Translations under genes and position numbers: made by a program
Notes under the pieces: model-generated
Databases searched by the model: none
What the model saw: only the letters and a program-made list of their open reading frames with translations
What the model was told of the DNA's origin: nothing
In this document: positions 1 to 17,884 of the stretch, one piece after another
Numbering within the stretch: position 1 is the stretch's first letter
Layout of the letters: the number at the start of each line of letters is the position of its first letter
From: Clostridia bacterium
GTDB taxonomy: Bacteria; Bacillota; Peptococcia; DRI-13; SM3-B62
DNA: 64,000 bases
NCBI GenBank assembly: GCA_018432615.1
Contig: JAHDSQ010000003.1
Span: 62,001-126,000 of the forward strand
Reading direction: 5' to 3'

Positions 1-659
1 TCCTCATCATTTTCCAAGAGTTTGATTGCCAGCCAACGGCGGATATTTCGATTATTATCGGCGGTCTTCATAATAGTTAGGGGCAGAACTCTTTCAAGAG
101 AGACGATTTGTTCCTCAATAACCTTGGCGTAGCGAGGTGTTTTATCTTGCAGGGTATTCTGACCGTCAGCCGTCGAAAGGACCATTTCCAGTAGCTCGGC
201 AGTACCTTTGTTTTTACTTCCTACAACCGGAACGATGGGACAGCCTAGGAGTTGAGAAAGGAGCTCCTGATTGATTTTAATGCCTTGTGAATGAGCCATG
301 TCACTCATATTGAGGGCAATCACAAGGGGAAGGTCCAATTCTATTAATTGGACTGTTAGATTTAAATTCCTTTCAAGATTTGTTGCGTCCACTATATTGA
401 CGATAACGTCAATGTTTTCCTCTATCAGGAAATTTCTGGATACAACCTCCTCGGGAGAATAAGCAGAAAGACTGTAGGTACCGGGAAGGTCTATGACGTG
501 TATTTTTGTATCTTTATATACAAGCGTGCCCTCGGCTTTTTCGACGGTAACTCCCGGATAGTTTCCCACGTGTTGATTAGAACCGGTTAAATTATTGAAA
601 ATAGTTGTTTTGCCGGCATTTGGGTTGCCGGCCAGTGCAATGGTAAGTTTTCTTTTCAT
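1..659 (-). CDS. feoB: Ferrous iron transporter FeoB, N-terminal part (cut by window edge)
   Basis: FeoB is the membrane Fe(II) permease with a cytosolic G-protein domain. Only the first ~219 residues are inside the window. The reading frame starts MKRKLTIALAGNPNAGKTT, giving the G1 loop at residues ~10-18; GVTVE (G2), DLPGTYS (G3) and NMSD (G4) follow in the right order, so the GTPase domain is intact as far as it can be read. The permease half lies to the left of the window. It begins six bases after the feoA stop codon and is the third gene of a dtxR-feoA-feoB operon on the minus strand, so it should be under the metal-responsive promoter upstream of the regulator gene. Confidence 0.96.
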   Translation of the reverse strand, partial: MKRKLTIALAGNPNAGKTTIFNNLTGSNQHVGNYPGVTVEKAEGTLVYKDTKIHVIDLPGTYSLSAYSPEEVVSRNFLIEENIDVIVNIVDATNLERNLNLTVQLIELDLPLVIALNMSDMAHSQGIKINQELLSQLLGCPIVPVVGSKNKGTAELLEMVLSTADGQNTLQDKTPRYAKVIEEQIVSLERVLPLTIMKTADNNRNIRRWLAIKLLENDE

Positions 660-665
660 TTTATG

Positions 666-944
666 CTATTCCTTTTCTAGTGGCTGTATTTCTACCGTAT
701 CGGCTTCTTCTCGACGCAAGGACAGATAACAATTCCTTATTCTGATCTCAATAGGGTCACCCATTGGGGCACAACGCTCCATTGTGACATCCTCTCCCGG
801 GACTACACCCATTTCAAGCAACCTCCGCCTGATAGGACCGTTGGCGCGAATGGCACAAATCCTTCCTCTTTTACCGGGTGCCAAATCGCTCAGTGTTCTT
901 TCGCATGAGTGAAAACACTTTCTGGCTCTCCTGCGCATACGCAT
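666..944 (-). CDS. feoA: FeoA, SH3-like accessory protein of ferrous iron transport
   Basis: Small cytosolic partner of FeoB with an SH3-like beta-barrel. The region LSDLAPGKRGRI is the typical entry to the fold, followed by a RRRLLEMGVVPGEDV turn and a GDPIEIRI stretch, all FeoA hallmarks. The frame could be opened at 965, but the ATG at 944 is preceded by AAGGAAG at 7-base spacing and the upper ATG has no ribosome site, so I place the start at 944 (92 residues). The very basic N-terminus (MRMRRRARK) is unusual but not unknown. It sits between the DtxR-type regulator and feoB in one transcription unit. Confidence 0.92.
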   Translation of the reverse strand: MRMRRRARKCFHSCERTLSDLAPGKRGRICAIRANGPIRRRLLEMGVVPGEDVTMERCAPMGDPIEIRIRNCYLSLRREEADTVEIQPLEKE

Positions 945-983
945 AATAATACTTCCTTTCAGCATTAGAAATATAATAAGGGG

Positions 984-1373
984 TCATTTAGTGAGATTTT
1001 CTCGCAAAAAAAGATATAATCTTTCTGAAGTATCCATGCTAATTGAGTGCTCCATAAGGCAGGCTTCTTTTTCAGCAGTTTTGTGGGGTACGCCGAGAAT
1101 GTGCACTAAAAAATCCTTTAATGCCCTGTGCCTTTGGCGTACCAGATGGGCTTGCTTTGCGCCCTCTTCAGTCAATTGGATCGGGCCGTATTTGTCATGT
1201 TGCAATAAACCCTGTTTGGACATGACTTTAACCATACCCGTAGCGCTTGGCTTTGTAACCTGTAAGTGGTTAGCCAAGTCTGTTATGCGAACGTTTTGTT
1301 CTCGTTCCGACAAATTGAGGATTGCTTCCAGATAGTCCTGAGACGATCTGGTCAGCGGTTCTTCTCTTCTCAT
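984..1373 (-). CDS. DtxR/MntR-family metal-dependent transcription regulator
   Basis: A 129-residue metal-sensing repressor: winged helix (about residues 8-70; recognition helix near TKPSATGMVKVM) plus a dimerisation/metal domain, without the C-terminal SH3 domain of full-length DtxR. Candidate metal ligands are visible: D13 and E16 (SQDYLEA), H82, then C105, E108 and H109 (EACLMEH). D13/E16 resemble MntR, while the Cys three residues before Glu-His resembles DtxR, where MntR has Glu. Being the first gene of an operon with feoA and feoB, it most likely senses Fe(II) and represses iron uptake, including itself. Metal preference (Fe versus Mn) is inference. Confidence 0.9.
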   Translation of the reverse strand: MRREEPLTRSSQDYLEAILNLSEREQNVRITDLANHLQVTKPSATGMVKVMSKQGLLQHDKYGPIQLTEEGAKQAHLVRQRHRALKDFLVHILGVPHKTAEKEACLMEHSISMDTSERLYLFLRENLTK

Positions 1374-1392
1374 TTGACAGCACCTACAATTA

Positions 1393-1447
1393 TGTTAGGA
1401 TTGACTAACATCAGAAACATCGTAATACTTTTAAAACTACTTGTCAA
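1393..1447 (-). promoter_or_regulatory. Promoter and dyad operator of the dtxR-feoA-feoB operon
   Basis: On the minus strand TTGACA (1442-1447) is followed after exactly 17 bases by TACGAT (1419-1424). Just downstream, over the expected transcription start, lies the perfect dyad TGTTAG-GATTGA-CTAACA (1393-1410). The half-site TTAG..CTAA resembles the known DtxR/IdeR operator style. Repressor bound here would cover the start region, so the operon is probably autoregulated by its own first product. Confidence 0.75.
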
Positions 1448-1487
1448 GGCGATTATAGCTAATGGTGTGTTATCGTTAATAGGATTA

Positions 1488-1516
1488 TTGACACGGCGGT
1501 TAATAATTGTTAGAGT
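1488..1516 (+). promoter_or_regulatory. Probable sigma-A promoter of mgtE
   Basis: TTGACA at 1488-1493, a 17-base spacer, then TAGAGT (1511-1516, 4 of 6 matches to TATAAT). It points toward mgtE and leaves a leader of roughly 150 bases. It is divergent from the feo promoter about 40 bases away. Confidence 0.5.
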
Positions 1517-1647
1517 AAATTTGGCTTTTAATCATGTTTGGAGGTGGTTTTGGTGGATTCGTACCCTCCCGGTTGTAAGATGAAAGAATTTGATAGGAAA
1601 TATTTTAACAGCGGGGAGCAGAATCGCCAAATCGTTTGATTGTGCTT

Positions 1648-1670
1648 GCTTCCCGCCAAGAGGGGGAAGC
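1648..1670 (+). promoter_or_regulatory. Hairpin that buries the mgtE ribosome-binding site
   Basis: GCTTCCC (1648-1654) can pair with GGGAAGC (1664-1670) across a 9-base loop. The right arm contains most of the only good Shine-Dalgarno sequence (AGGGGGAAG) of mgtE, which lies 3 bases before the TTG start. Such a stem would reduce translation unless opened. No match to the Mg-sensing M-box leader was recognised. Confidence 0.45.
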
Positions 1671-1673
1671 GTC

Positions 1674-3044
1674 TTGATAAAAGATAAAAAAATAGCGCCG
1701 AAGATGTTAAGAACGTACTATTTACAGCAGGATGAAGCTAAAGGCAAGGAGTTCCTTGCGATGTTTCAACCTGCGGATATTGCAGAAATCTTGGAAGATA
1801 TGGAGGCCGAGGTACAAAAATGGGTTATAGCTCTTTTAGATGATGAGAGGGCTGCCGATGTAGTCAATGAGTTGGAACCCGATGTGAGCAGGGAATTGTT
1901 AGGCCTTTTAAGCCCGGAAAGGGCTTCCAGGATTTTTGATGAGATGTCGCCCGACGATGTTGCTGATTTGTTGGGTGAGTTCTCAGACCAGGATCAGGAT
2001 CGTTATCTCGGTATGATGGAAACGGAAGACAGGCAGGATGTTCGCGAGCTTATGAACTACCGGGAAGATACGGCCGGTGGCATCATGACGGTGGAATATG
2101 TAGCCATCAGAGAAGACATTACCGTGGAAAAAGCGATTGAGGTTTTACGGGAAACTGCTCCCGAAGCAGAGACAGTATATTATGTTTATGTGATAAATCT
2201 GAAGAACCAACTGGTGGGAGTTATCTCTTTAAGGGAACTGATAATTGCCGAGCCCAAGTCGTTAATCAGGGACATCATGAGGCGGCATGTGATAAGTGTA
2301 CCTGTTGATATGGACCAGGAAGAGGTTGCCTATATGGTAACTAAATACGATTTTTTGGCGGTGCCTGTAGTCGACCATGATAGGTCGCTAATGGGGATTA
2401 TTACTGTCGATGATATTATTGATGTTATTCACGAAGAGGCTGCTGAGGATATATACTTGTTAGCCGGTGCGCCCGGTGAAGATGAAAAGGAAGAAGAGGA
2501 TGAATTCCTGCTGCGCATCAAAAGCTCTTTGCAGGCAAGGCTGCCTTGGTTGTTTGTCACTATGCTGGGCGGTCTGGTCTCAGGAAGGGTTCTGAGCAGT
2601 TTTTCCGAGCAAATAAGCGCAGTTATCGCTTTAGCCTTCTTTGTTCCTCTCTTGACCGGGATGGGAGGAAATGTTGGGACCCAGTCATCTACGGTCACTG
2701 TCCGGGGAATTGCGACAGGACAGATAAAGGAAGACAGAGTTCTTAAGGTAATTTTAAGGGAGTCACTGACCGGGCTTTTCATGGGATTAGTGTTGGGAAC
2801 CATAGTTGGTCTTATTGCGGCCTGGTGGCAGAGCAAACCCATGTTGGGATTGGTAGTAGGTTTGGCTATGATGGGCAATATGTTTACAGCAGCAACCATG
2901 GGAACCCTGGTCCCGTTGTTTTTCCGCAGGGTGGGCATTGATCCCGCAGTGGCATCCGCACCCTTTATTTCGACGGCTATCGATATTACAGGTCTTTTGA
3001 TTTATTCGACGCTGGCTACACTATTGATATTTTATTTATTGTAG
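1674..3044 (+). CDS. mgtE: MgtE-type magnesium transporter
   Basis: Mg2+ channel of the cytoplasmic membrane. The protein shows an acidic N-terminal helical domain (DIAEILEDM, ERAADVVNEL, SPERASRIFDEM repeats), two CBS domains (roughly residues 110-235) and a C-terminal membrane part with about five helices carrying the pore-lining region around GGNVGTQSSTVTVRGIATG, a family signature. I chose the TTG at 1674 because GGGGGAAG precedes it and the resulting 456 residues match the family length; an ATG at 1590 would add 28 residues with no ribosome site. Preceded by its own promoter and an SD-sequestering hairpin; followed by a strong terminator. Activity is normally gated by cytosolic Mg2+ through the CBS and N domains. 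Confidence 0.95.
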   Translation: MIKDKKIAPKMLRTYYLQQDEAKGKEFLAMFQPADIAEILEDMEAEVQKWVIALLDDERAADVVNELEPDVSRELLGLLSPERASRIFDEMSPDDVADLLGEFSDQDQDRYLGMMETEDRQDVRELMNYREDTAGGIMTVEYVAIREDITVEKAIEVLRETAPEAETVYYVYVINLKNQLVGVISLRELIIAEPKSLIRDIMRRHVISVPVDMDQEEVAYMVTKYDFLAVPVVDHDRSLMGIITVDDIIDVIHEEAAEDIYLLAGAPGEDEKEEEDEFLLRIKSSLQARLPWLFVTMLGGLVSGRVLSSFSEQISAVIALAFFVPLLTGMGGNVGTQSSTVTVRGIATGQIKEDRVLKVILRESLTGLFMGLVLGTIVGLIAAWWQSKPMLGLVVGLAMMGNMFTAATMGTLVPLFFRRVGIDPAVASAPFISTAIDITGLLIYSTLATLLIFYLL

Positions 3045-3059
3045 ATGGTTTTGGACTTT

Positions 3060-3093
3060 GAGGATTGTTGTTTTTTGGGCAATCCTCTTTTTT
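3060..3093 (+). terminator. Rho-independent terminator of mgtE
   Basis: GAGGATTG (3060-3067) pairs with CAATCCTC (3080-3087), followed directly by six T (3088-3093). Confidence 0.9.
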
Positions 3094-3147
3094 AGTTGCT
3101 ATTCCTAACAAATCTTTTAATAATTATAGCTTTGTAACCTACCAGTA

Positions 3148-3175
3148 ATAACCCTGGGCATAAGCCCAGGGTTAT
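3148..3175. repeat. Perfect 12-bp inverted repeat between convergent genes
   Basis: ATAACCCTGGGC (3148-3159), loop ATAA, GCCCAGGGTTAT (3164-3175). A very stable hairpin on either strand, but with no T-run on either side. It lies between mgtE and the end of the DUF2283 gene; it may act as a transcript end-stabiliser or a back-up bidirectional terminator. Confidence 0.7.
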
Positions 3176-3237
3176 AGGTACTAAACGAATTAGCATTAAT
3201 GTTAGTTATTAATAGGGTAATAAGTAGTCTATAAATA

Positions 3238-3495
3238 TCAATTAATATGTTCTTCTATTTTTTCAAAGTCAAGATTCACTAAAAAATCTATAGATGAAAA
3301 ATAATCCTCACTTAATCTTTTTTTGAAGTCTAGAATGGTAAAACCGGTTAATCGTTCATCAATAAAAGAATACCTGAACACAATACCGTCATATTTTTCG
3401 TCACCATACGATGGCAGTGGTTCTCCCAATGATATATAAAGAATATCATTTTTTTTATCATAGTTTATTGAGACATCATTTTTTTGGTTTAACAT
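3238..3495 (-). CDS. DUF2283 family small protein
   Basis: An 85-residue protein with the DUF2283 pattern: INYDKKNDILYISLGEP near the N-terminus, then DGIVFRYSF and GFTILDFKKR. The family has no firmly known activity; members are small, often encoded next to other small genes in accessory regions. Here it is the last of three minus-strand genes and its start overlaps the end of the preceding gene by 20 bases, so translation is probably coupled. High A+T compared with the flanking core genes is consistent with acquired DNA. Function is unknown; a role as partner or antidote of the upstream nuclease-like protein is speculation. Confidence 0.8.
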   Translation of the reverse strand: MLNQKNDVSINYDKKNDILYISLGEPLPSYGDEKYDGIVFRYSFIDERLTGFTILDFKKRLSEDYFSSIDFLVNLDFEKIEEHIN

Positions 3496-3826
3496 ATATT
3501 AAACCCTCTTTTCTCACTCCGGTAATGGTTTTTTCAAACCAACTGCTCATTATTGTTCCCTTTTTTGGGTCAGAATAGTCTATTATTACTTTAGTATATA
3601 GTTTTGGATAAGTAGATGTTTCCACTTTTGCATAAAAAACTTCTCTATTTTCATTCTGATTGCTTAAATACACAAAATCAGGAGTCTCGGTACATTGTTT
3701 TATAGAGTAGTAGTTATCTTTCATTTCAGGATGACCAATACAAATGTGTTTTTTAAATGTTTTATTATCCAATTGAACCAAACGATTTTTGTAATCGTAC
3801 GTTGACATGATTATATCATCTTTCAA
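3476..3826 (-). CDS. Small protein resembling BECR-fold (RelE/barnase/EndoU-like) nucleases
   Basis: A 116-residue protein of unknown function. The layout KKHICIGHPEM, then TPDFVYLS, then EVFYAKVE, then LYTKVIIDY, then GTIMSSWF is the strand-rich pattern with a conserved HPE motif seen in phage-type Barnase-EndoU-ColicinE5/D-RelE-like nuclease domains; this is recognition by pattern, not by alignment. The TTG at 3826 follows AGGTGA by five bases and lies next to the stop of the DUF3467 gene; the ATG at 3808 (MSTYDYK) is the alternative. It is the middle gene of a three-gene set immediately upstream of, and divergent from, the BREX operon. It could be a toxin or effector, but nothing here proves catalysis. 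Confidence 0.55.
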   Translation of the reverse strand: MKDDIIMSTYDYKNRLVQLDNKTFKKHICIGHPEMKDNYYSIKQCTETPDFVYLSNQNENREVFYAKVETSTYPKLYTKVIIDYSDPKKGTIMSSWFEKTITGVRKEGLIYVKPKK

Positions 3827-3835
3827 TCAAATCAC

Positions 3836-4099
3836 CTAATTTGCAGACAATTTATTCACCATATTATCGGGCAATGTAATCACACCAAAATTCTTTTCAT
3901 AAAACTCGACATTTTTATTTACAATTACCATTAATGCTTTTGCGTGTTGTGGACTCATGATTACTTTTACAGAATCATTTAATTCTTCTTCTGTATTATT
4001 GTTTTCTGCCGGTGTTTTTAAATTGAAATTAAATATGAAATCATATAAACTAATATTCAATTCAAGATTATTGCAGTAAAAAACCTTTTGATTTTCCAT
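3836..4099 (-). CDS. DUF3467 family small protein
   Basis: An 87-residue protein ending in the DUF3467 signature: VKVIMSPQHAKALMVIVNKN followed by VEFYEKNFG. The family function is not established. ATG at 4099 is preceded by GGGAGG at 9-base spacing. First gene of the three-gene minus-strand unit, with 9 bases to the next start. The leader region up to the BREX operon (4100-4417) contains a short GCGTC-AG-GACGC dyad near 4206-4217 and A+T-rich DNA that could hold promoters for both directions, none of them strong to the eye. Confidence 0.8.
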   Translation of the reverse strand: MENQKVFYCNNLELNISLYDFIFNFNLKTPAENNNTEEELNDSVKVIMSPQHAKALMVIVNKNVEFYEKNFGVITLPDNMVNKLSAN

Positions 4100-4294
4100 A
4101 ACTCAAAGCCTCCCGGTCGTTATATTAACAAGTTATTTTTTTATATTCTATATTATTATCGTAAATTCCTTCAATTTAAGACATATAATTTGGAAATTAC
4201 TACCCTTGCGTCAGGACGCTTCTTTGCGTATGTTTAACAAGTTTTAATTCCGCGATCCTTTCACAGATATGGGTACTAGATGAGGATTATTTAT

Positions 4295-4411
4295 ATGCCT
4301 ATTTCAGTAATAATTTTGATGGGTTTTATTTTTTGCTTTTCAATGTATTCGCTTATAAAAAGTGCTACAATATTCATATGGCAAAATGGCCACGAACAAG
4401 AGGTGGGATGA
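4295..4411 (+). CDS. Possible 38-residue membrane peptide leading the BREX operon
   Basis: A short frame begins at ATG 4295, nine bases after TGAGG, and ends with TGA at 4409-4411, six bases before brxA. The product starts MPISVIILMGFIFCFSMYS, a continuous hydrophobic segment long enough to cross a membrane, and ends in a polar tail (QNGHEQEVG). Good ribosome site, tight spacing to brxA and one clean transmembrane segment speak for a real gene. Against it: small size, no recognised family, and -10-like sequences (TATAAA at 4354, TACAAT at 4366) inside it that might be the true operon promoter. Confidence 0.3.
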   Translation: MPISVIILMGFIFCFSMYSLIKSATIFIWQNGHEQEVG

Positions 4412-4417
4412 GGTAAA

Positions 4418-5014
4418 ATGTTAAAATACAAGTCAACAATAAAAGCGAGAGCCTTTCTTTATTTAGAACTAAAAAAAGCTACGAGCCTTTATTTGCAGGG
4501 CTTTTCAATAGAAGATGTAAAGCAGAAGGCATTACAAAACAATATTTTTTTACTAAATTCCGAGAGCAGAATCAAAGAAATTGCTGCAACAATCAGTGAA
4601 AGGATTAACGCCTTAGACGAAAAATTGCTTCATAAGATAGCAAAAGGCAACCTGGAAACCGGTAAGCAGTTAGCCCTATACTCCATTTTGAAAACGGACA
4701 AGCTATTCTTTGAATTCATGCAGGAAGTATATCGAGAAAAGTATCTTCTGAGAGATTACATGATCACTGATAAGGATTTTAAGATATTTTTTCAAAGAAA
4801 AGCCGAACAAAGCCAGCAGGTAGCGAACTGGAAAGACTATACCTTATATAAACTACAGCAGGTCTATAAGAGGATTTTAACCGAAGCAGGTTTTGCAAAA
4901 AAGAACCAAAAGAATATAGAAATAACGAGGCCTATTATGGAGAAGGAAATAATTGATCACATTAAAAATAAAGGTGATGAAATATTCCTGCGGGCCATGT
5001 TAGGAGAGGTATAA
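4418..5014 (+). CDS. brxA: BREX protein BrxA (DUF1819 family)
   Basis: First core gene of a type I BREX phage-defence operon. BrxA is a small DNA-binding helical protein of the defence complex; 198 residues is the usual length. The N-terminal segment (TIKARAFLYLELKKATSLYLQGFSIEDVKQKAL) and the block ALYSILKTDKLFFEFMQEVYREK are typical of the family. ATG 4418 follows GAGG at suitable spacing. Its stop codon abuts the brxB start directly, so the two are translationally linked. The following five genes appear in the canonical BREX order with short gaps. Confidence 0.93.
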   Translation: MLKYKSTIKARAFLYLELKKATSLYLQGFSIEDVKQKALQNNIFLLNSESRIKEIAATISERINALDEKLLHKIAKGNLETGKQLALYSILKTDKLFFEFMQEVYREKYLLRDYMITDKDFKIFFQRKAEQSQQVANWKDYTLYKLQQVYKRILTEAGFAKKNQKNIEITRPIMEKEIIDHIKNKGDEIFLRAMLGEV

Positions 5015-5596
5015 ATGAGGAACATCTATGAGCGGCTTGATAAAATTCTCCCAACTATTATGGATAAGAGGTTTAGGGAAAATAAGGGATTAGGCAATGA
5101 AATAGGTTTTTACATTTTTGATTATGACCCAAAAGATGAAATGGCTGTTAGAGAACATATCTCGTTCTTAAAACAGAAAATAAATAATGACGGCATAGAA
5201 GTCACTATCAAGGAATTTGACCTATATGAAATTATGATTAAAATTCTGGAGAGCAAGGGTTATCTGAAAAAAGTGTTTGAATTAGAAGAGAAGAAAGGAA
5301 CAGCGGCGATTCTTAAACCGATAAAAAATACCTTAAGGCTAACGCAAAAAAATGATTTAGTTGTAGAATACATCAGGGACAGGGTCGAGGATAATGACAT
5401 TGTATTTTTAACCGGAGTGGGAAAGATTTGGCCAATTATACGCTCCCATACTGTTTTAAATGTTTTACATTCAGTTATTGACAATGTACCTTTAATTATG
5501 TTTTATCCGGGAACTTACTCTGGGCAGGATTTACATCTCTTTGAAGAGATTTCAGACCAAAACTATTATAGGGCTTTCAAACTGGCAGAAAGATAG
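5015..5596 (+). CDS. brxB: BREX protein BrxB (DUF1788 family)
   Basis: Second BREX gene, 193 residues, the normal size for BrxB, a structural component of unknown biochemical activity. The DUF1788 pattern is clear: ERLDKILPTI near the N-terminus, GNEIGFYIFDYDPKDE, and the C-terminal VFLTGVGKIWPIIRSHTVLN followed by PLIMFYPGTYSGQDLHLF. Ribosome site AGGAGAGG lies inside the brxA end. The stop is nine bases from the brxC start. Needed together with the other five products for modification and exclusion in characterised type I systems. Confidence 0.93.
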   Translation: MRNIYERLDKILPTIMDKRFRENKGLGNEIGFYIFDYDPKDEMAVREHISFLKQKINNDGIEVTIKEFDLYEIMIKILESKGYLKKVFELEEKKGTAAILKPIKNTLRLTQKNDLVVEYIRDRVEDNDIVFLTGVGKIWPIIRSHTVLNVLHSVIDNVPLIMFYPGTYSGQDLHLFEEISDQNYYRAFKLAER

Positions 5597-5605
5597 GGGA
5601 GGCTG

Positions 5606-8600
5606 ATGAAGTTTATGAAGCTTGGGAAGATGTTTTATAAAAAAATTGATAGGGACATTAAAGGTGTTATCAAGATTGGACAGGATGATGATGCCAATGT
5701 CTATCAAGAACTGGAGGAATACGTAGTTACAAAAGAATTAAACCGGCATTTCAGTATATTTTTTGATTCTTATAAAAAAAGTATTAACACCTATACTGAC
5801 AAAATGGGGGTTTGGATATCCGGTTTCTTTGGCTCCGGTAAATCCCATTTCTTAAAGATATTGTCCTATCTTCTTGAGAATAAAGAAGTGAAGAATAAAC
5901 ACGCTGTATCATACTTTGACGATAAAATAAATGATCCTATGGTGTTGGCAGATATTAAGGCGTCAGGAGATGTCAGCACTGATGTAATATTGTTCAATAT
6001 TGATTCAAAATCAGATTCAGATTCTAAAAGCAGCAAAGAGTTAATAGTTAAAGTATTTAATAAAGTTTTCAATGAAATGCAGGGTTTTTGCGGTTCTCTC
6101 CCCTGGCTGGCTGACCTGGAAAGGCAAATGGTTAAAGAGGGCTCCTACGAAGCCTTTAAAGCAAGGTTTAGTGAATTAGCAGGCAGTTTATGGGAGGACA
6201 CAAGAGAGGATTTCTATTTCGAGGAAGACAATATTGTTCAAGCCTTGGCTGACACTACCAAAATGAGCGTAGAAGCAGCCCGAAATTGGTATCATAAAGC
6301 AGAAGAAAACTATTCTTTAAGCGTTGAAAAATTTTCCAATAAGGTTAAGGAATACATAGAATCCAAAGGGAAAGAGCATCATGTTATTTTCCTCGTAGAC
6401 GAGATGGGGCAATACATAGGTGACGATGTTGGTTTAATGTTAAACTTGCAAACCGTAGTTGAGGATTTAGGAACATACTGTGGTGGCAAGGCCTGGGTCA
6501 TTGTTACTTCTCAGCAGGATATTGATTCCATTACCAGAGTGAGAGGAAATGATTTTTCCAAAATTCAGGGCAGATTCAACACAAGGCTTAGTCTTTCCAG
6601 TGCTAATGTGGACGAGGTAATCAAAAGAAGAATTCTCCATAAAAATGATGTAGCGAAAGATACCCTTAAACTCCTCTATTCAGATAAAGTGGCCGTCTTA
6701 AAGAACCTCATCACTTTTTCAGCAGATACTCCAGAAATGAAGACGTTTAAGAACCCAGAGGATTTTGTAGAGGTTTATCCCTTTATCCCTTATCAGTTTA
6801 GGCTTTTGCAATCAGTATTTACAGCCATTAGGCAGCATGGAGCCAGCGGCAAGCACCTTTCAGAGGGGGAAAGGTCTCTTTTGAGTGCTTTTCAAGAAGC
6901 GGCTGTGAAATACATGGACAAGGAAGTAGGGGTTTTAGTGCCTTTTTCATCCTTCTATGAGACTATTGAAACCTTCCTTGACCACAATATTCACACAGTC
7001 ATTATGCATGCGGAGGATAACACCAGACTTACGCCTATGGACGTGGAGGTACTAAAAGTCCTTTTCTTAATAAAGTGGGCAAAAGAAATGCCCAAAAATA
7101 TGGAAAACATAGCAACGTTAATGGTACGTCATATTGATGAAGATAAGGTTGAATTAAAGAAAAAAATTGAAGAATCCTTAAGCAGGCTCATAAAAGAAAC
7201 GCTAATCCAGAAAAACGGTAATGAATATATTTTCCTAACCCATGAAGAACAAGACGTCAATAAAGAGATACAAAATATCCCTATTGATCTTGGAGAAATC
7301 ATTTTAAGGATTGGGGAAGAGATATATACGGGCATTTATAGTGAAAAGAAGTTCCGCTATAATCCCAGATACCACTTTGACTTCAATAAGATAATTGACG
7401 ATAGGCTCCTATCGGCACAGAAAAATGAAATAGGGGTTAAGGTCATTACCCCTTACTTTGATGCCGGTGTAGAACTATCTGACAATGAATTAAAAATGAT
7501 GTCGGCAAGGGAAAATAATTTAATTATTAAACTTCCCCCAGATGCATCTTTCCTTGAGGAAATGGAGGACATTCTAAAGATACAAACCTATCTTAAAAGG
7601 AAAGCAGGAGCTTCTGCAACAGAGGCTATTGAAGAGATTAAGGCCAGGAAATCAAGGGAGGTTGCCGAGAGGAAAGACAGGGTAGAATCTTTACTACTTG
7701 AAGCGTTAAAAGAGGCGGATTTCTATGCTAATATGCAAAAAATCGATATAAAATCAAAAAACCCCGTGGAACGAATCAACAGCGGATTAAAAATAATTAT
7801 AGATAATATCTACAACAAACTAAATTACGTTACCGAATTTATTGAGAACCCTAAAGAACTCTACGATCTGTTGCTTGTTGAGGATGCCCAAATAAAACTA
7901 TTTGACAGGGATGAGGACGTTCCCAATAGATTAGCAATAGAGGAATTGACCCACTATATTGAGCGAAATACACAACGGCATATTCCCATCACAATGAAAA
8001 CCGTTTTAGAGCTGTACTCTAAGCCCCCCTACGGTTGGCTGCCGGATGATATTAGAGGGCTTGTTATCAGGCTGTTTAAATCCCAAGAGATAAAAATGCA
8101 GTTGGGCAGTGATTATCTCAATGTCTCCGATAAAAGCCTGATTCAGTACATCACCAAGAAAGACTATGTTGACAGGTTACTCATTAAGAAAAGGACCAAA
8201 ACCCCGGAAAAGTATCTTCATAATGCCAAGCTGTTAAGCAAAGAAGTATTCAATTATTCCTCCGTGCCGGGGGATGAAGATGGTCTGATGAAGCGTTTTC
8301 AAGAGTTGTCTAATAATGAACTGTCAAAAATAAGGGAACTCTTAGTTCGCTATGAAAATAACAACTATCCCGCCAAAGAAGTCTTGGATAAAGGGAAAGA
8401 ACTATTTGAGGAACTCACTTGCATAAGAGATGCGTCTGTATTTTATGAAAGACTGTATGAGGTGAAAGAAGAACTGCTGGACTACGAAGAAAAAGTCTTT
8501 GATGTGAAAAAGTTTTTTGAAAATCAAAGAGAACAGTTTGACAAAGCCGTGAAACAACTGAATGTTTACGAAAAGAATAAGACCTATGTTCTTGACAGTG

Positions 8601-9178
8601 AAACCATCAATATTATTAAGGAAATAAAGGCAATAGTTGAATTGCCTAAGCCCTACTCTCAAATACCAAAACTCCCCAGTCTAATAAATGATTTTATTAA
8701 CAAGTTTGTCAAACTATTAGAAGAAGAGTGTAAGCCGATAAGGGATGTTATAGAAAACGACCGGCAAAAAGTTAAAGATGAATTGGATCTGTATGACTTC
8801 AGGGATGAATTGTATAGTAAATTCGATGATGAATTCAAAGACCTTCTAAAAAGGCTGGATTCTTCGCATAATTTCTATGAAGCCATTGCCATGAAAGAAG
8901 AATCTGATCGGCTGAAGATGCGTTGCTTTGAAGAAATAAAGAGAATAAGGGATCTTAGATCAAAAGAAAAGGCAGAGAAGGAGCAGCCAACGACCATTAA
9001 AGACGGTGAGAAAAAGGTTGAATACAAAATCAGAAGAACCGTTAATGTGAGTATCGCCAACATATTCCATGGAGCAAAGACCATTGAAACTGAAGAAGAC
9101 ATAGAAGAGCTTCTTGGCTATTTAAGAAAACAATTGAAAGAAGAATTAAAAGAAGACACCATACTAAAGCTAATCTAA
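5606..9178 (+). CDS. brxC: BREX protein BrxC, large P-loop ATPase
   Basis: Large (about 1,190 residue) ATPase of the BREX complex, distantly AAA+/ORC-like. Walker A is GFFGSGKS at residues 73-80 and Walker B is IFLVDEMGQ near residue 260; a sensor-like segment WVIVTSQQDIDSI follows. The C-terminal half is rich in charged helices (long coiled coil around residues 650-720 and 920-1150). Two starts are possible: ATG 5606 lies only three bases from GGGGAGG, while ATG 5615 has 12; both give the same domain content. Length matches type I BrxC. ATP-driven role in methylation and phage arrest is family knowledge. Confidence 0.95.
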   Translation: MKFMKLGKMFYKKIDRDIKGVIKIGQDDDANVYQELEEYVVTKELNRHFSIFFDSYKKSINTYTDKMGVWISGFFGSGKSHFLKILSYLLENKEVKNKHAVSYFDDKINDPMVLADIKASGDVSTDVILFNIDSKSDSDSKSSKELIVKVFNKVFNEMQGFCGSLPWLADLERQMVKEGSYEAFKARFSELAGSLWEDTREDFYFEEDNIVQALADTTKMSVEAARNWYHKAEENYSLSVEKFSNKVKEYIESKGKEHHVIFLVDEMGQYIGDDVGLMLNLQTVVEDLGTYCGGKAWVIVTSQQDIDSITRVRGNDFSKIQGRFNTRLSLSSANVDEVIKRRILHKNDVAKDTLKLLYSDKVAVLKNLITFSADTPEMKTFKNPEDFVEVYPFIPYQFRLLQSVFTAIRQHGASGKHLSEGERSLLSAFQEAAVKYMDKEVGVLVPFSSFYETIETFLDHNIHTVIMHAEDNTRLTPMDVEVLKVLFLIKWAKEMPKNMENIATLMVRHIDEDKVELKKKIEESLSRLIKETLIQKNGNEYIFLTHEEQDVNKEIQNIPIDLGEIILRIGEEIYTGIYSEKKFRYNPRYHFDFNKIIDDRLLSAQKNEIGVKVITPYFDAGVELSDNELKMMSARENNLIIKLPPDASFLEEMEDILKIQTYLKRKAGASATEAIEEIKARKSREVAERKDRVESLLLEALKEADFYANMQKIDIKSKNPVERINSGLKIIIDNIYNKLNYVTEFIENPKELYDLLLVEDAQIKLFDRDEDVPNRLAIEELTHYIERNTQRHIPITMKTVLELYSKPPYGWLPDDIRGLVIRLFKSQEIKMQLGSDYLNVSDKSLIQYITKKDYVDRLLIKKRTKTPEKYLHNAKLLSKEVFNYSSVPGDEDGLMKRFQELSNNELSKIRELLVRYENNNYPAKEVLDKGKELFEELTCIRDASVFYERLYEVKEELLDYEEKVFDVKKFFENQREQFDKAVKQLNVYEKNKTYVLDSETINIIKEIKAIVELPKPYSQIPKLPSLINDFINKFVKLLEEECKPIRDVIENDRQKVKDELDLYDFRDELYSKFDDEFKDLLKRLDSSHNFYEAIAMKEESDRLKMRCFEEIKRIRDLRSKEKAEKEQPTTIKDGEKKVEYKIRRTVNVSIANIFHGAKTIETEEDIEELLGYLRKQLKEELKEDTILKLI

Positions 9179-9195
9179 GCAGGGGAGGGAAAAGC

Positions 9196-12100
9196 GTGAA
9201 TAAATCGGCTATAAAAAATTTTGCCGTCAGAGCCAGAAGAAAGCTCATAGAAGAAGTAACCCATAAAGCCTATGAAATAGGGATAACCAAAGATAATATA
9301 AATAAAATAGAAACCTTTGAAGGCGGCTTTATAGTTAAGGGCAGGGAAAACGGTAAAGCCTTTAAGAAATATGAACTTAAACAGCGTGAGAGACTGGTCC
9401 AAAATATTAAAGACAAGGGGTTTGAGCAAGTTATAGAGGAAGTTGCCTATACCTGGTTTAACCGCTTTATTGCCCTGCGTTTTATGGAGGTAAATAATTA
9501 TCTTCCCACAGGGGTAAGAGTATTATCTTCAGAAGAAGAAGGGAAAACCGAACCGGATATTATTAAAGAAGCCCTCGACATCGACTTAGAAGTGGAGCAA
9601 GAAATTATCTTCAGATTGCAGGATAGTAATGATACGGAAGATCTGTATAAATACCTGTTGATTAGACAGTGTAATCAACTTGGTAAGATCATGCCGGCTG
9701 TATTTGAAGAAATTGCAGATTATACGGAACTGCTACTGCCGGATAAACTGTTGGCAGAAGGTTCTATTATCAGGGACTTAGTTGAGAGCATAGAGGAATA
9801 TGATTGGAAGATAGAATTGGATGAAAAGGAACAAAAACAGGAGACAGAAAAGGGAGAGCACGGTATAGAAATCATCGGTTGGCTCTATCAGTATTATATC
9901 TCTGAAAAACACAAGGAAATTGTAGGGATAAATAAAGAGATGATAAAAAAAGAAGATATACCTGCTGCTACTCAACTTTTCACACCTAAGTGGATTGTTA
10001 AATACATGGTAGAAAATTCGTTGGGAAGGTCTTGGTTAGAGTCTCACTCAAATGAAGAATTAAAGGCTCAGTGGAAGTATTACCTAGAAGAACCAGAACA
10101 AGAGCCTGAGGTGCAAAAACAACTGGATGAATTAAAGAACCCCAACTTGAATCCTGAAGAAATCAAAGTATTAGATCCTGCCATGGGTAGCGGTCATATT
10201 CTGGCCTATGCCTTTGATGTTCTTTATGAAATATATTTGAGTGCAGGTTACTCGGAAAGAGAAATTCCAACTCTTATATTAGAGAAAAACCTTTATGGCC
10301 TTGATATTGATGACCGGGCAGGCCAATTGGCATGTTTTGCGTTGCTCATGAAGGCAAGAAGTAAAAACAGGAGGATATTTAGAAACAGGCCAAGGTTGAA
10401 TCTCTGTTCCATTCAAGAAAGCAATGCTATTCCTAAAGAAGCCATAGAATATTTGGTTAACCCTAAAGAAGCAGAACTGTGGAAAGAAAAGCATAAAGAA
10501 GAAGCGAAGTATTTAATCGATGTTTTCCATGATGCTAAGGAATATGGCTCTATTCTTGAAGTGAAGGAAATAGATTTTGATGCTTTGGAAAGAAGGATAG
10601 AAGAGATTAGAAATGATAGCCCAGCAGATATTTTTGAATTGCAGCATAAGGAAGTTATATTGGAGAAGGTGTTTCCGCTGATTCAGCAGGCTAAGATAAT
10701 GAGTCAGGAGTACGACATAGTCGTAACTAATCCCCCTTATATGGGTAATAAATATATTAATAGTAAACTAAAGCGCTTTATAATAAATAATTACGAGGAC
10801 CATAAATCAGATTTATTCTCAGTATTTATAGCCCGTAATTGCAAATATGCAAAGGATAATGGGCAACTAGGCTTTATGACACCTTTTGTGTGGATGTTTA
10901 TTTCTTCGTATGAGAAAATGAGGCAGAAAATTATTAAAGAAAAGTCTGTTACAAGTTTAATTCAACTTGAATATTCGGGTTTTGCTGAAGCAACAGTTCC
11001 GATCTGTACATTTACGTTAAGAAACATTAGCACAGGTGAGAGTGGAGAATATGTTAGACTAACTGATTTCAAAGGACCTGACAATCAGTCAATAAAGACA
11101 TCAGAAGCAGTAGTAGATCCAAGTGTGGAATATAGATATACAACTAAGACATCTAATTTATCAATGATACCTGGAAGTCCGGTTGCTTATTGGGTTAAAA
11201 ATAATGTTATTAATACTTATATAAATGGTATGCCATTGGGTAAGATGGGATTGCCAAAAACAGGCATGACAACAGCAGATAATAGTAGATTTTTAAGACG
11301 GTGGTTTGAAGTCAATATAGAGAAAGTTAATTTTAACAGTAAAGATAAAGATGATGCAATAAACAGCAAGGCAAAATGGTTTCCATACAGTAAAGGTGGC
11401 GGCTTTAGAAGGTGGATGGGCTATGATGAATATTTAGTTAACTGGGAAAACGATGGCTTAGAAATAAAGCAAAATAAAGATAAAAATGGAAAGAAACTGG
11501 CATCAGTTAGAAGTGAAGATAAATACTTTAAGCCTTGTATAACTTGGTCTGCGGTTACATCGTGTAAATTTTCCTCAAGAATAGTTGATGCAGGTAGAAT
11601 TTTTGATTCAGGGGGATCATCAATTTTTTTAAACGACAATCTTTACTTTGTAGAAGGGTTTCTTAATACAAAGATAGCACAGATGTATTTATCTTTAAGT
11701 AACCCTACTTTAAACTATCAACCTAGGGATATAGCAAATATGCCTATAATTCACTCTGAAGTAAAGATGAAAGAGAAAGTAGAGTATTTGGTAAAACAAA
11801 ATTGCATAATATCTAAAATCGACTGGGATTCCTTTGAAACCTCATGGGATTTTAAAAAGCATCCATTAATCTCATATAGAATGGCTGGTGCCTATGCATG
11901 GGGAGATAACCTGCCTTCGTGCAGAATATCATCAGCCTTTAAAGCATGGGAACTATTCACAGACGGCCAATTCGATCAACTAAAAGCCAACGAAGAAGAA
12001 CTCAACCGTATTTTCATAGAAATATACGGACTTCAGGACGAACTCACCCCTGAAGTAGAGGATAAGGACATCACGATTAACAAAGCAGATCGGGAACGGG

Positions 12101-12900
12101 ATATTAAATCCTTTATTTCTTATGCAGTGGGTTGCATGTTTGGCCGATATTCTTTAGACGAAGACGGGCTAATCTACGCCGGCGGAGAATTCAGTGATAA
12201 ACTCAGGTTTAACAATGGCAAATGGCAGATTAACACCAAGGAGGGTTGGCAGCAATCCTCAATCAATATAGCAAAAGATAACATCATCCCTATTGCCGAC
12301 GGGGATTACTTTGAAGATGATATCCTTGAGCGATTCGTTGAGTTTGTTAAGGCATCCTTCGGTGAAGAGGCATTGGAAAAAAACTTAGGATACATTGCTG
12401 AAACCTTGGGTAAAAAGACTAATGAAACTTCTAGACAAGCCATCAGAAGATACTTCTTAAAAGACTTTTATAAAGACCATGTGAAAACATATAAGAAGCG
12501 GCCTATTTACTGGTTATTTGATAGCGGTAAGCAAAATGGGTTTAAAGCCCTTATCTATATGCACCGCTATGACCCCTATACCATAGCCAGGGTAAGAACT
12601 GATTATTTACACACGCTACAGAAAAAATATGAAGCACAAATCAATCATCTGGATATCATAATCGCCTCCGAAATCTCTGACAGGGAGAAGGTTGCGGCCA
12701 GAAAGAGGAAAGAAGTCATTCTAAAACAGATACAGGAATGCAGAGCCTATGACCAAGCCATAGCCCACGTAGCCAACCAAAAGGTAGAGATCGACTTGGA
12801 TGACGGCGTAGTAGTTAACTATGCAAATTTTCAAGGGATTGAAATACCGCAAGGAGAGGGTAAGAAGCCCTTAAAAGCAGATCTGCTAGCAAAGATATGA
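9196..12900 (+). CDS. pglX: BREX adenine-N6 DNA methyltransferase PglX
   Basis: The specificity and methylation subunit of BREX: it methylates one adenine in a non-palindromic site so that host DNA is marked as self. GTG start at 9196 after GGGGAGGG (6 bases). Segment TQLFTPKWIVKYMVENSLG (near residue 258) is followed by SAM-binding motif I DPAMGSGH at 327-334 and catalytic motif IV NPPY at 512-515, the arrangement of a gamma-class N6-adenine methyltransferase. The part after motif IV, about residues 515-880, is the likely target-recognition region; its base composition is lower in GC than the flanks. At 1,234 residues it has the usual PglX length. Intact frame, no phase-variable tract seen. 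Confidence 0.96.
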   Translation: MNKSAIKNFAVRARRKLIEEVTHKAYEIGITKDNINKIETFEGGFIVKGRENGKAFKKYELKQRERLVQNIKDKGFEQVIEEVAYTWFNRFIALRFMEVNNYLPTGVRVLSSEEEGKTEPDIIKEALDIDLEVEQEIIFRLQDSNDTEDLYKYLLIRQCNQLGKIMPAVFEEIADYTELLLPDKLLAEGSIIRDLVESIEEYDWKIELDEKEQKQETEKGEHGIEIIGWLYQYYISEKHKEIVGINKEMIKKEDIPAATQLFTPKWIVKYMVENSLGRSWLESHSNEELKAQWKYYLEEPEQEPEVQKQLDELKNPNLNPEEIKVLDPAMGSGHILAYAFDVLYEIYLSAGYSEREIPTLILEKNLYGLDIDDRAGQLACFALLMKARSKNRRIFRNRPRLNLCSIQESNAIPKEAIEYLVNPKEAELWKEKHKEEAKYLIDVFHDAKEYGSILEVKEIDFDALERRIEEIRNDSPADIFELQHKEVILEKVFPLIQQAKIMSQEYDIVVTNPPYMGNKYINSKLKRFIINNYEDHKSDLFSVFIARNCKYAKDNGQLGFMTPFVWMFISSYEKMRQKIIKEKSVTSLIQLEYSGFAEATVPICTFTLRNISTGESGEYVRLTDFKGPDNQSIKTSEAVVDPSVEYRYTTKTSNLSMIPGSPVAYWVKNNVINTYINGMPLGKMGLPKTGMTTADNSRFLRRWFEVNIEKVNFNSKDKDDAINSKAKWFPYSKGGGFRRWMGYDEYLVNWENDGLEIKQNKDKNGKKLASVRSEDKYFKPCITWSAVTSCKFSSRIVDAGRIFDSGGSSIFLNDNLYFVEGFLNTKIAQMYLSLSNPTLNYQPRDIANMPIIHSEVKMKEKVEYLVKQNCIISKIDWDSFETSWDFKKHPLISYRMAGAYAWGDNLPSCRISSAFKAWELFTDGQFDQLKANEEELNRIFIEIYGLQDELTPEVEDKDITINKADRERDIKSFISYAVGCMFGRYSLDEDGLIYAGGEFSDKLRFNNGKWQINTKEGWQQSSINIAKDNIIPIADGDYFEDDILERFVEFVKASFGEEALEKNLGYIAETLGKKTNETSRQAIRRYFLKDFYKDHVKTYKKRPIYWLFDSGKQNGFKALIYMHRYDPYTIARVRTDYLHTLQKKYEAQINHLDIIIASEISDREKVAARKRKEVILKQIQECRAYDQAIAHVANQKVEIDLDDGVVVNYANFQGIEIPQGEGKKPLKADLLAKI

Positions 12901-12915
12901 AGAGTGGTGACTATA

Positions 12916-15489
12916 ATGAATTTAGTGGAAGTAAAGAGAATCTTGGAAGAAAACTTCAATAAAGAACCTGCTGAAGGGAAAAAGAGGAATATAGTTTTCT
13001 GGTATGACGAAGAGGGGGAGTTTGTTGAAGACATTAATGAACTCAGCTTAGATAACGCCAAAACCCTGAAACTTACCGATAACAATGCCTTCTATATCAA
13101 GTATCAATTGGAAAAGAAAGATACAGAGTCTAATTATCTGATCTATTCCCCTCAAGGAAAGCCTTTGCCCCGTGACAACTGGATACTGGATATTCTCAAA
13201 TACAGCATGGAGTTTTCTACGGACAAGGCTGTTTTAATCATGCGGGATTTAGGAGCAAAAGATCCTTCGTTGAGGAATGTCTTTAAGAAGTATTTAAAAT
13301 TCTTTGGTAACAAAGAGCGGTACAAAAAGTTTGCTTCCTTTCATGTAGATAATTTCACCGAAGAGAAGGTTGATATAGCCGTTTTAGCTGCTTTGTGTAA
13401 ACTACCTGTGGCTGATTTTGAACAGGTTGTTAAAAAGGTTTTGCTTGGAGAAACAGAAAGAGAAAATAAGTACCTGGAAGCAATAAAAAACTTTGGCGAT
13501 ATCGACGCTTTCTGGAACCTGATTGAAAAAAGGTATGGTTATACTTATGAGGATAAGTCCTTAGAAAAGCTCGCTGTGATGCTTCTTACAACCCATTTGA
13601 GTTATAGTCTTGAAGAAAACCTGCCCAAAACATGGCAGGAATATGTGTCACCCAAAAAGTCCGATTGCATGGTTTTTGTCGACAATTTCATGAAACATGT
13701 TGTTGATAGGAGCGCGTTTAATGCTTTAGCGGATGAGGTAGAAAGAATATTAAATGTTAAAGGGTACTTGGATAAATGGGATATTGAGAAGTATCTTGAA
13801 TGCGATACCTTCAGGGCCTTCGATGAAAAAATAATAAATAAGTTAATGGACAACTTGTTGGAAGGTATTGGGGAGTTTGGCAAGTACCGCAGGATTATCA
13901 ATGACAGAAGGAAAAGACACTGGTTTGAGATATATCAAAATGTATATGAAGCCCTCTCCTATGCCTTGGAACTTCTTGAAATGGAAAAAAGAGTGGAAGA
14001 AGGCCTCAAAGGCCAGTCTGCCTTTGAATTGGTTGATATCTATGTTAAAGAATACTATCTTATGGACCAATTCTATAGAAAGTTTTATTTGTACTACGAC
14101 AAGGTTGAGAACAAAGAGCTTCTCTTTAAGTTAGGAGAAAGAATTGAAAATACATACACCCATTGGTATTTAAATGAACTCTCAGTCAAATGGTCGGCAG
14201 CAGTAGAGGAAGGAATGCTCGATAACTATCCTTTAACAAGTATTCATCAGCAAAAAGATTTTTATCGGGATTATATAGAATCGTTTGTGAGGAATGATGA
14301 GAGGGTCTTTGTAATTATCTCCGATGCTTTAAGATATGAGGCCGCGAAAGAGCTTATCGGCCTGATAAATAAAGAAGTAAGAGGAGTAACAGAGATAGAA
14401 TTCATGCAAGGGGTCGCTCCCTCAACCACCAAGTTTGGTATGGCAAGTCTCTTGCCACGAAAAACGATTACGGTTAACGAAAAAGCAGAAGTTATGATAG
14501 ATGGGATAAACACCCAGGGAACAGAAAATAGAGGAAAGATACTGGCAAATTACAGCAAAGATGCACTGGCAATTGGGTTTTTTGACATGATAGATATGAA
14601 AAGGCCGGAATATAAAGAAGTCTTTGAGGGCCGAAAACTAATCTATATCTATCACAACGCAATTGATGCCGTAGGGGATAAAGCCTTAACGGAAAGGGAG
14701 GTCTTTGAAGCTACAGAAAAGGCTTTTGAAGATCTGGTCCTTTTGGTTAAAAACCTTGTCAATCATGTAAGTGCCACAAACATTATGATTACAGCAGACC
14801 ACGGTTTTATTTATAGGCGGTCACCCTTAACCGAGGTTGACAAGATTTATAAGTGTGAGACAGAAGCTCTAGAAGCAGGAAGAAGGTATGTGCTCTCAGC
14901 AAACGAGAAAGAGTTACCTTATTCCCGGAAGGGGGAAGATACCTTATCTATTTCCATGAAGTATCTCTTAGGTAAGGAAACTAGCCTTATAGCCATTGTT
15001 CCTAAAGGAGTTATCCGTTATAAAATCCAGGGCTCAGGAGCCAACTATGTTCATGGCGGGGCATCTCTTCAGGAAGTCATCATACCCGTGATCAAGTTTA
15101 AAAATGTCCGTAAAAATGAGTATAAAGCCACCAAGGTTGAAGTAAAACTGACTAATATCTCCAGAAAAATAACAAACAGGATTACTTATCTTGAATTCTT
15201 CCAAACAGAACGGTCCGAAGACAAAAAGGTACCACTGAAGTTAAAACTATACTTTACAGATGAAGAGGGTAATCGTATATCCAACGAGAACATTATCATT
15301 GCTGACAGCAGGTCCAAAAAACCGCAGGAGCGTACTTATAGGGAGAAATTTACTTTAAAAGATATGGCTTATGACAAAACAAAAAAGTACTATTTGATTC
15401 TGGAGGACGAAGAAGAGCCTGTAGAAAAAATATATGAAAAAATCCCTTTCAACATTGATATGATTATCAGTGATGATTTCGGATTGTAA
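12916..15489 (+). CDS. pglZ: BREX protein PglZ, alkaline-phosphatase-superfamily protein
   Basis: Core BREX gene with an alkaline-phosphatase-like metal-binding domain. Landmarks: IVFWYDEEGEF near the N-terminus (typical PglZ opening), VFVIISDALRYEAAKEL (around residue 464; metal-binding Asp), GVAPSTTKFGMASLLP, IYHNAIDAVGDK, and ITADHGFIYRR (around residue 628; Asp-His metal ligands). A frame start at GTG 12904 exists but has no ribosome site; ATG 12916 has GTGGTG upstream and gives the family-typical N-terminus MNLVEVKRILEENFNKE, so I use it (857 residues). Biochemical role in BREX is not settled, although the metal site is conserved and required in studied systems. Confidence 0.94.
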   Translation: MNLVEVKRILEENFNKEPAEGKKRNIVFWYDEEGEFVEDINELSLDNAKTLKLTDNNAFYIKYQLEKKDTESNYLIYSPQGKPLPRDNWILDILKYSMEFSTDKAVLIMRDLGAKDPSLRNVFKKYLKFFGNKERYKKFASFHVDNFTEEKVDIAVLAALCKLPVADFEQVVKKVLLGETERENKYLEAIKNFGDIDAFWNLIEKRYGYTYEDKSLEKLAVMLLTTHLSYSLEENLPKTWQEYVSPKKSDCMVFVDNFMKHVVDRSAFNALADEVERILNVKGYLDKWDIEKYLECDTFRAFDEKIINKLMDNLLEGIGEFGKYRRIINDRRKRHWFEIYQNVYEALSYALELLEMEKRVEEGLKGQSAFELVDIYVKEYYLMDQFYRKFYLYYDKVENKELLFKLGERIENTYTHWYLNELSVKWSAAVEEGMLDNYPLTSIHQQKDFYRDYIESFVRNDERVFVIISDALRYEAAKELIGLINKEVRGVTEIEFMQGVAPSTTKFGMASLLPRKTITVNEKAEVMIDGINTQGTENRGKILANYSKDALAIGFFDMIDMKRPEYKEVFEGRKLIYIYHNAIDAVGDKALTEREVFEATEKAFEDLVLLVKNLVNHVSATNIMITADHGFIYRRSPLTEVDKIYKCETEALEAGRRYVLSANEKELPYSRKGEDTLSISMKYLLGKETSLIAIVPKGVIRYKIQGSGANYVHGGASLQEVIIPVIKFKNVRKNEYKATKVEVKLTNISRKITNRITYLEFFQTERSEDKKVPLKLKLYFTDEEGNRISNENIIIADSRSKKPQERTYREKFTLKDMAYDKTKKYYLILEDEEEPVEKIYEKIPFNIDMIISDDFGL

Positions 15490-15508
15490 ATAGGCAGGTG
15501 AAGAAAAG

Positions 15509-17551: not shown

Positions 17552-17736
17552 GGTATGGGGTGATAGGTTATTTTTCTGGGTTTGGACTTTGATAACATTT
17601 GTTTTTTTACTTAAAACAGTTATAATTAAATAGTAAGGTGTGCTGTTGATGATGGTAAAAACACACCAGTATTGCGGATGAAACCTTGAGTAAGACTAAA
17701 AAAGCATTGATACTATTGTCAGAAAGGATAAGGCCT

Positions 17737-17880
17737 ATGCAAACTGGTAAGTTCTTCTGGAATTATTTTTTTGTAACCGGCAATATCGGTGCTTATCTTA
17801 TTTTCCGAGAAATTAATAAAACGAGTGTCATGATACCCAGTGATGTTTGCGGACTAAAGAAGAAGAAAAGGCTGGGGTAA
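17737..17880 (+). CDS. YqzL-like micro-protein upstream of recO
   Basis: A 47-residue product starting MQTGKFFWNYFFVTGNIGAY, matching the YqzL family (Trp-Asn/Lys-Tyr-Phe...TG.I.AYL pattern) that in bacilli sits directly before recO and is of the same length. The ATG at 17737 follows AAGGA by 8 bases; the frame can be read from a TTG at 17686 but that adds 17 residues not seen in the family. The basic tail (LKKKKRLG) is typical of small ribosome- or RNA-associated proteins, but function is unknown. Four bases separate it from recO. Confidence 0.75.
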   Translation: MQTGKFFWNYFFVTGNIGAYLIFREINKTSVMIPSDVCGLKKKKRLG

Positions 17881-17884
17881 GGAC

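Follow-up and report, generated by a model that had tools for sequence, protein, structure and literature searches.

The window analysed here, a stretch of 64,000 nucleotides from a Clostridia bacterium (contig JAHDSQ010000003.1), carries next to a BREX operon three small genes that code for a DUF3467 protein, a protein with a predicted BECR-type nuclease fold (the middle protein) and a DUF2283 protein. The three genes are probably a toxin-antitoxin-like cassette of phages and mobile DNA, composed of a BECR RNase toxin, a DUF2283 antitoxin and DUF3467 as a third component. What is new is a BECR toxin-antitoxin module with an unusual third part, BECR toxin-antitoxin modules as such being known. 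The cassette and its upstream region are organised as follows:

3836-4099, minus strand: DUF3467 gene, first of the cassette, 87 aa (PF11950, E=8.7e-12, 45.4 bits against a cut-off of 25 bits)
3476-3826, minus strand: middle gene, predicted PBECR-like BECR-fold protein, 116 aa from TTG or 110 aa from an ATG at 3808
3238-3495, minus strand: DUF2283 gene, third of the cassette, 85 aa (PF10049, E=1.5e-6, 28.7 bits against a cut-off of 23 bits)
4100-4417, unstranded: divergent intergenic region from the cassette to brxA (promoter and Rfam scans)

Anatomy and conservation of the three-gene array

The coordinates agree with the earlier note, which had described three small minus-strand genes with overlapping or 9-base junctions: the DUF3467 and middle genes are separated by 9 nt while the middle and DUF2283 genes overlap by 20 nt. 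The range given there, 3238-4411, holds for the genes, which end at 4099; its remainder is intergenic region and a 43-aa hydrophobic ORF (4280-4411, plus strand) found just 5′ of brxA, whose status as a gene is unsupported. The DUF3467 gene is preceded by a GGGAGG ribosome binding site and the TTG initiation codon of the middle gene by the Shine-Dalgarno sequence AGGTGA. The ribosome binding site (AGAGGG) and the initiation codon of the DUF2283 gene are both located within the 3′ end of the middle gene. Promoters above chance level and a clear operator were not found in the intergenic region. An Rfam search of positions 3000-18000 identified no RNA element, so that a type I or type III antitoxin RNA is unsupported. 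None of the three proteins is found among the defence genes listed by PADLOC.

The earlier note had pointed to co-occurrence of the three families across genomes as a check of the module. The array, with the gene order DUF3467/middle/DUF2283, is indeed found in 14 independent lineages, window included (G393 (L017) was left out as a weak, broken match):

the window
Anoxybacillus (L010, L028, L038, L040)
Clostridia DTU068 (L013=L039)
Bacillota SKS1.bin35 (L014=L036)
G042 (L015)
G123 (L016, middle gene broken)
Staphylococcus phage phiSP119-2 (L023)
S. nepalensis plasmid (L024)
G404 (L025)
viral contig (L030)
Pelotomaculum sp. (L037)
Parageobacillus (L043=L045)
G115 (L093)
G088 (L096, middle gene frameshifted)

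The mean identity between lineages is ~30% per gene and the divergences of the three genes correlate (r 0.49-0.60, Mantel p<=0.0022). One pair shows purifying selection (omega 0.03-0.11). Chance does not explain the gene order, since the same order in 14 lineages is accompanied by correlated divergence and, in that pair, by purifying selection. An overlap of 14-50 nt between the middle and DUF2283 genes is seen in each of the 13 measured arrays, whereas the spacing between the DUF3467 and middle genes varies from -23 to +33 nt. The gene layout of type II toxin-antitoxin systems is thus present: the genes are small, adjacent, co-oriented, overlapping (13/13) and conserved as a pair. Sampling of Bacillota by family revealed the cassette at 6 of 13 DUF3467 loci, and with the DUF2283 profile the middle gene, whole or partial, was found just upstream in 8/8 genome contigs and 3/3 viral contigs (the middle gene of L039, included in this count, is that of L013). 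A two-gene form with the middle and DUF2283 genes but without DUF3467 exists at L027, L041 and L046, and a distant relative (L026) has an intact, solo middle gene without recognisable DUF2283. Few further copies came from scans of viral contigs with single middle proteins.

Predicted fold of the middle protein and its pairing with DUF2283

Modelling of the middle protein with AlphaFold2 on a 10-member alignment (pLDDT 89.6, pTM 0.82) gave a helix at the N-terminus and, after it, an antiparallel sheet of 4-5 strands, as in known BECR/PBECR structures. The best matches among viral models (BFVD) are phage PBECR/MuF-C-type regions (E 4.5e-6, 3.5e-5 and 5.7e-5, probability 1.00, TM by query 0.64-0.68). 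With Z values that are all below 8, and thus singly within the range where chance arrangements occur, the VIA comparison to solved structures in the PDB has at its top a Salmonella toxin-antitoxin complex (Z 7.7, rmsd 3.1, 83 aligned) and includes BrnT (Z 7.4, rmsd 3.0, 76 aligned), CdiA-CT (Z 7.1, rmsd 3.2, 85 aligned), RelE (Z 5.8, rmsd 3.4, 73 aligned) and many more RelE, HigB and ParE rows. Most of the top rows are BECR toxins. Foldseek matches to the PDB were weak (E-values >0.1) and a sequence search of the PDB with all three proteins yielded no useful match. The BECR-type nuclease fold supposed in the earlier note is confidently predicted by this modelling, its closest relatives being phage PBECR/MuF-C, then BrnT, CdiA-CT and RelE. 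The assignment is based on the coherence of the VIA matches, on the PBECR match and on conserved residues rather than on single Z values. Both findings that the earlier note had named as speaking against its reading, an unconserved gene neighbourhood and a fold unrelated to BECR nucleases, were looked for and neither was seen.

In Pfam the window protein reaches PBECR3 with E=0.045 (14 bits, below the cut-off of 30) and leaves the RelE, HigB, BrnT, ParE and DUF4258 models unmatched. Five of its 10 relatives match PBECR2 (best 3.8e-8), and one relative is just over the curated cut-off (27.2 versus 27.1). The active site of PBECR domains is composed of a helix His and a Ser/Thr in strand 4 (PMC5512222). 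This pair is found in the middle-protein relatives as His21 (17/18) and Ser/Thr88 (18/18; numbering from the ATG). Other kept positions are His26 (17/18), Glu28 (16/18), Pro43 (18/18), Arg55 (15/18) and Tyr/Trp105 (18/18). The HPE motif reported in the earlier note is present as H26-P27-E28. Candidate catalytic residues, as read from the alignment, are His21 and Ser88 and also His26, Glu28, Arg55 and Tyr105.

The middle gene is broken by stops, frameshifts or truncation at seven loci where DUF2283 is open (L012, L016, L042, L074, L080, L083, L096), while an intact close relative of the middle gene with a broken DUF2283 was seen at none of the examined loci. This 7 to 0 split has a sign-test p of ~0.016, a count that draft-assembly errors could inflate and to which some loci contribute only related two-gene forms. 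Such one-sided decay is what a toxin role of the middle protein and an antitoxin role of DUF2283 would lead one to expect. Of 30 sampled DUF2283 loci, at least 16 have a BECR-type gene before DUF2283, which is of the middle type in seven and of the DUF4258 type in nine. The actual toxin-antitoxin pair thus seems to consist of the middle protein and DUF2283. The two small neighbours of the middle gene had been described as antidote-like in the earlier note; this fits DUF2283, which looks like an antitoxin, but DUF3467 is an added third component and not obviously an antidote. DUF2283 was not described in the literature searched.

Another small gene family (SKHFLKRKGLRGIPDGLAE...) is found upstream of DUF2283 at L076:1643-1930 and L079:1215-1514. 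It is possibly a further BECR-like toxin clade.

DUF3467 and a proposed mechanism

The MSPQHAK and YExxFG motifs of DUF3467 are kept in its relatives. The model has a b-b-b-alpha arrangement and moderate scores (pLDDT 77.5, pTM 0.49). Foldseek against the PDB was uninformative and the VIA matches are weak and partly coherent: COMM domains (COMMD, Z 6.1), Borrelia PUR-alpha (5.3), PC4 (4.2) and MRP1/2 (4.0). The single-strand nucleic-acid binders PUR-alpha, PC4 and whirly share with DUF3467 a sheet and a long helix (weak VIA, Z 4-5), but no sequence similarity was found and the fold match is not decisive. In a Phocaeicola massiliensis record from a plasmid collection (OY726002.1, L105:4839-5180) the DUF3467 gene has rpoC on its upstream side and is immediately followed by rpsL and rpsG (neighbours named by reading the sequences, not by profile). 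A gene for a TROVE/Ro60 RNA-binding protein is directly followed by DUF3467 in a Bacillota genome (L095:1438-3132). The PUR/PC4-type matches, the rpoC-rpsL position and the TROVE/Ro60 neighbour suggest a nucleic-acid role; the modelled DUF3467 is probably a single-stranded nucleic-acid binder, which we retain as a lead only. Two phage contigs carry DUF3467 genes (L032:1-321, L034:166-486) and neither the middle gene nor DUF2283 was detected there. DUF3467 is mentioned only once, in passing, in the literature searched.

The cassette most likely operates as follows. The middle protein would be a PBECR-type RNase in which His21 of the first helix and Ser/Thr88 of a late sheet strand cut the target RNA in a metal-free reaction. 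DUF2283 would neutralise it as a protein antitoxin, its synthesis being coupled to that of the toxin by an initiation codon inside the toxin gene. DUF3467, encoded first, would be translated before the toxin and probably bind single-stranded nucleic acid, either RNA or DNA. Its possible functions are repression of the operon or guidance of the RNase towards a target. The carrier would probably benefit from stable keeping of the element or from a growth arrest that stops competing phages. A bolder and rather unlikely extension is that DUF3467, as a PUR/PC4-like protein, links the PBECR RNase and DUF2283 to the transcription/translation machinery, phage takeover or loss of the element then releasing the RNase. 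If true, DUF3467-linked RNase release would introduce a sensing architecture that is new among BECR toxins.

Genomic setting, alternative readings and known systems

The BREX operon divergent from the cassette was called complete in the earlier note, and PADLOC identifies there the type 1 gene set. The operon and the ends of the island that contains it are:

3046-3076, plus strand: left end of the island, direct repeat copy 1, where the left G398 homology ends
4418-17551, plus strand: complete type 1 BREX operon (PADLOC, Pfam, NCBIfam)
4418-5014, plus strand: brxA
5015-5596, plus strand: brxB
5606-9178, plus strand: brxC
9196-12900, plus strand: pglX
12904-15489, plus strand: pglZ
15509-17551, plus strand: brxL
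17577-17607, plus strand: right end of the island, direct repeat copy 2, just before recO, where the right G398 homology starts

G398 is a sister species of the same genus (RecO 95% identical). In its genome the flanking sequences that correspond to window 1-3076 (mgtE side) and to 17577 onward (recO side) are contiguous, at 94% identity, which defines the cassette and BREX as one 14.5-kb island. The island ends form an imperfect 31-nt direct repeat (81%) in which TTTGGACTTTGA is matched exactly, and a recombinase gene was not recognised within the island. The GC content is 29% in the cassette, 34-40% in the BREX operon and 43-47% in the host, and the lower value of the cassette suggests separate origins. 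Elsewhere, the Anoxybacillus and Pelotomaculum copies adjoin a prophage serine recombinase and repressor, those of Parageobacillus and of viral contig L030 are downstream of an N-acetylmuramoyl-L-alanine amidase, and an annotated amidase is found near the cassette of the S. nepalensis plasmid. Further copies are positioned between housekeeping genes. The cassette is thus mobile-element cargo, found elsewhere in prophages, plasmids and housekeeping regions that do not adjoin BREX.

It is quite improbable that the cassette serves BREX as an anti-phage accessory, supplying a back-up RNase that comes into action upon BREX failure. Such a role has been proposed for HEPN, PIN and Schlafen RNases encoded in BREX loci (2026 BREX survey, PMC12839542), and the cassette does share with BREX an island that is missing from the sister genome. 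However, none of the 13 other three-gene arrays adjoins BREX genes, of the 12 related genomes searched a single one clearly has BrxC, on other contigs, the two parts of the island differ in GC content, and a text search of PMC12839542 gave no BECR RNase, DUF2283 or DUF3467. Of the earlier suggestion of a toxin-antitoxin or accessory defence module beside BREX, the conserved toxin-antitoxin-like three-gene module stands while the specific link to BREX is unsupported; their proximity in the window is probably due to defence-island clustering.

Two other readings concern the roles of the proteins. Instead of a toxin, the middle protein might be a phage effector RNase or an inactive RNA-binding domain that serves prophages during infection, DUF2283 and DUF3467 assisting in its folding or targeting. 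Its nearest folds are phage PBECR/MuF-C regions, many copies are found in phage regions, and PBECR domains were proposed to target host or phage RNA, or RNA-based anti-phage systems (PMC5512222). We consider this unlikely: fusions to MuF, portal or polyvalent proteins were not found, many copies are stand-alone and chromosomal, and the constant DUF2283 overlap and one-sided decay favour a toxin-antitoxin. The assignment of the antitoxin role to DUF3467 instead of DUF2283, or to both jointly, has in turn a low probability. Antitoxin-first gene order is common, and DUF3467 is small, first in order and co-diverges with the middle protein at r 0.60 versus 0.49 for DUF2283. Against this stand the loci with the middle and DUF2283 genes alone, the pairing of DUF2283 with DUF4258 toxins too, and toxin-free settings of DUF3467 such as that between rpoC and rpsL. 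The reading of the cassette as a BECR RNase toxin, a DUF2283 antitoxin and a third component is retained as the probable one.

Several known systems resemble the cassette in part. The PBECR domains of phage MuF/polyvalent proteins (PF18810 PBECR2, matched by relatives to 3.8e-8, and PF18812 PBECR3) have the same predicted fold, with the helix-1 His and strand Ser/Thr, and phage association is common to both; the middle protein differs by being stand-alone, operonic with DUF2283 and DUF3467 and unfused to virion proteins, and its window member is below Pfam cut-offs. DUF4258-DUF2283 pairs also have a BECR-type gene followed by DUF2283, but the toxin clade is different (HxxxxHPE with a TTDPLGR start) and the cassette has an extra DUF3467 in front. 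BrnT-BrnA likewise encodes the toxin first and then the antitoxin, BrnT being among the nearest solved folds (Z 7.4); in contrast, the cassette has no BrnT sequence match, DUF2283 is not BrnA and there is a third gene. The ptuXYZ system is a three-gene defence operon with a BECR RNase whose partners, a DUF262 protein and an ATPase, are wholly different (PMC11980606). The 13 families of the 2025 BECR toxin survey do not include that of the middle protein (PMC11980606), and the three-gene cassette was not described in the literature searched.

With the cassette, a further type of phage-borne RNase toxin-antitoxin would be known, one that has an unexplained third subunit. It would give DUF2283 a role, as an antitoxin common to several BECR toxin clades, and would offer a first approach to DUF3467, which is encoded as a small protein in a core Bacteroidota transcription/translation operon.
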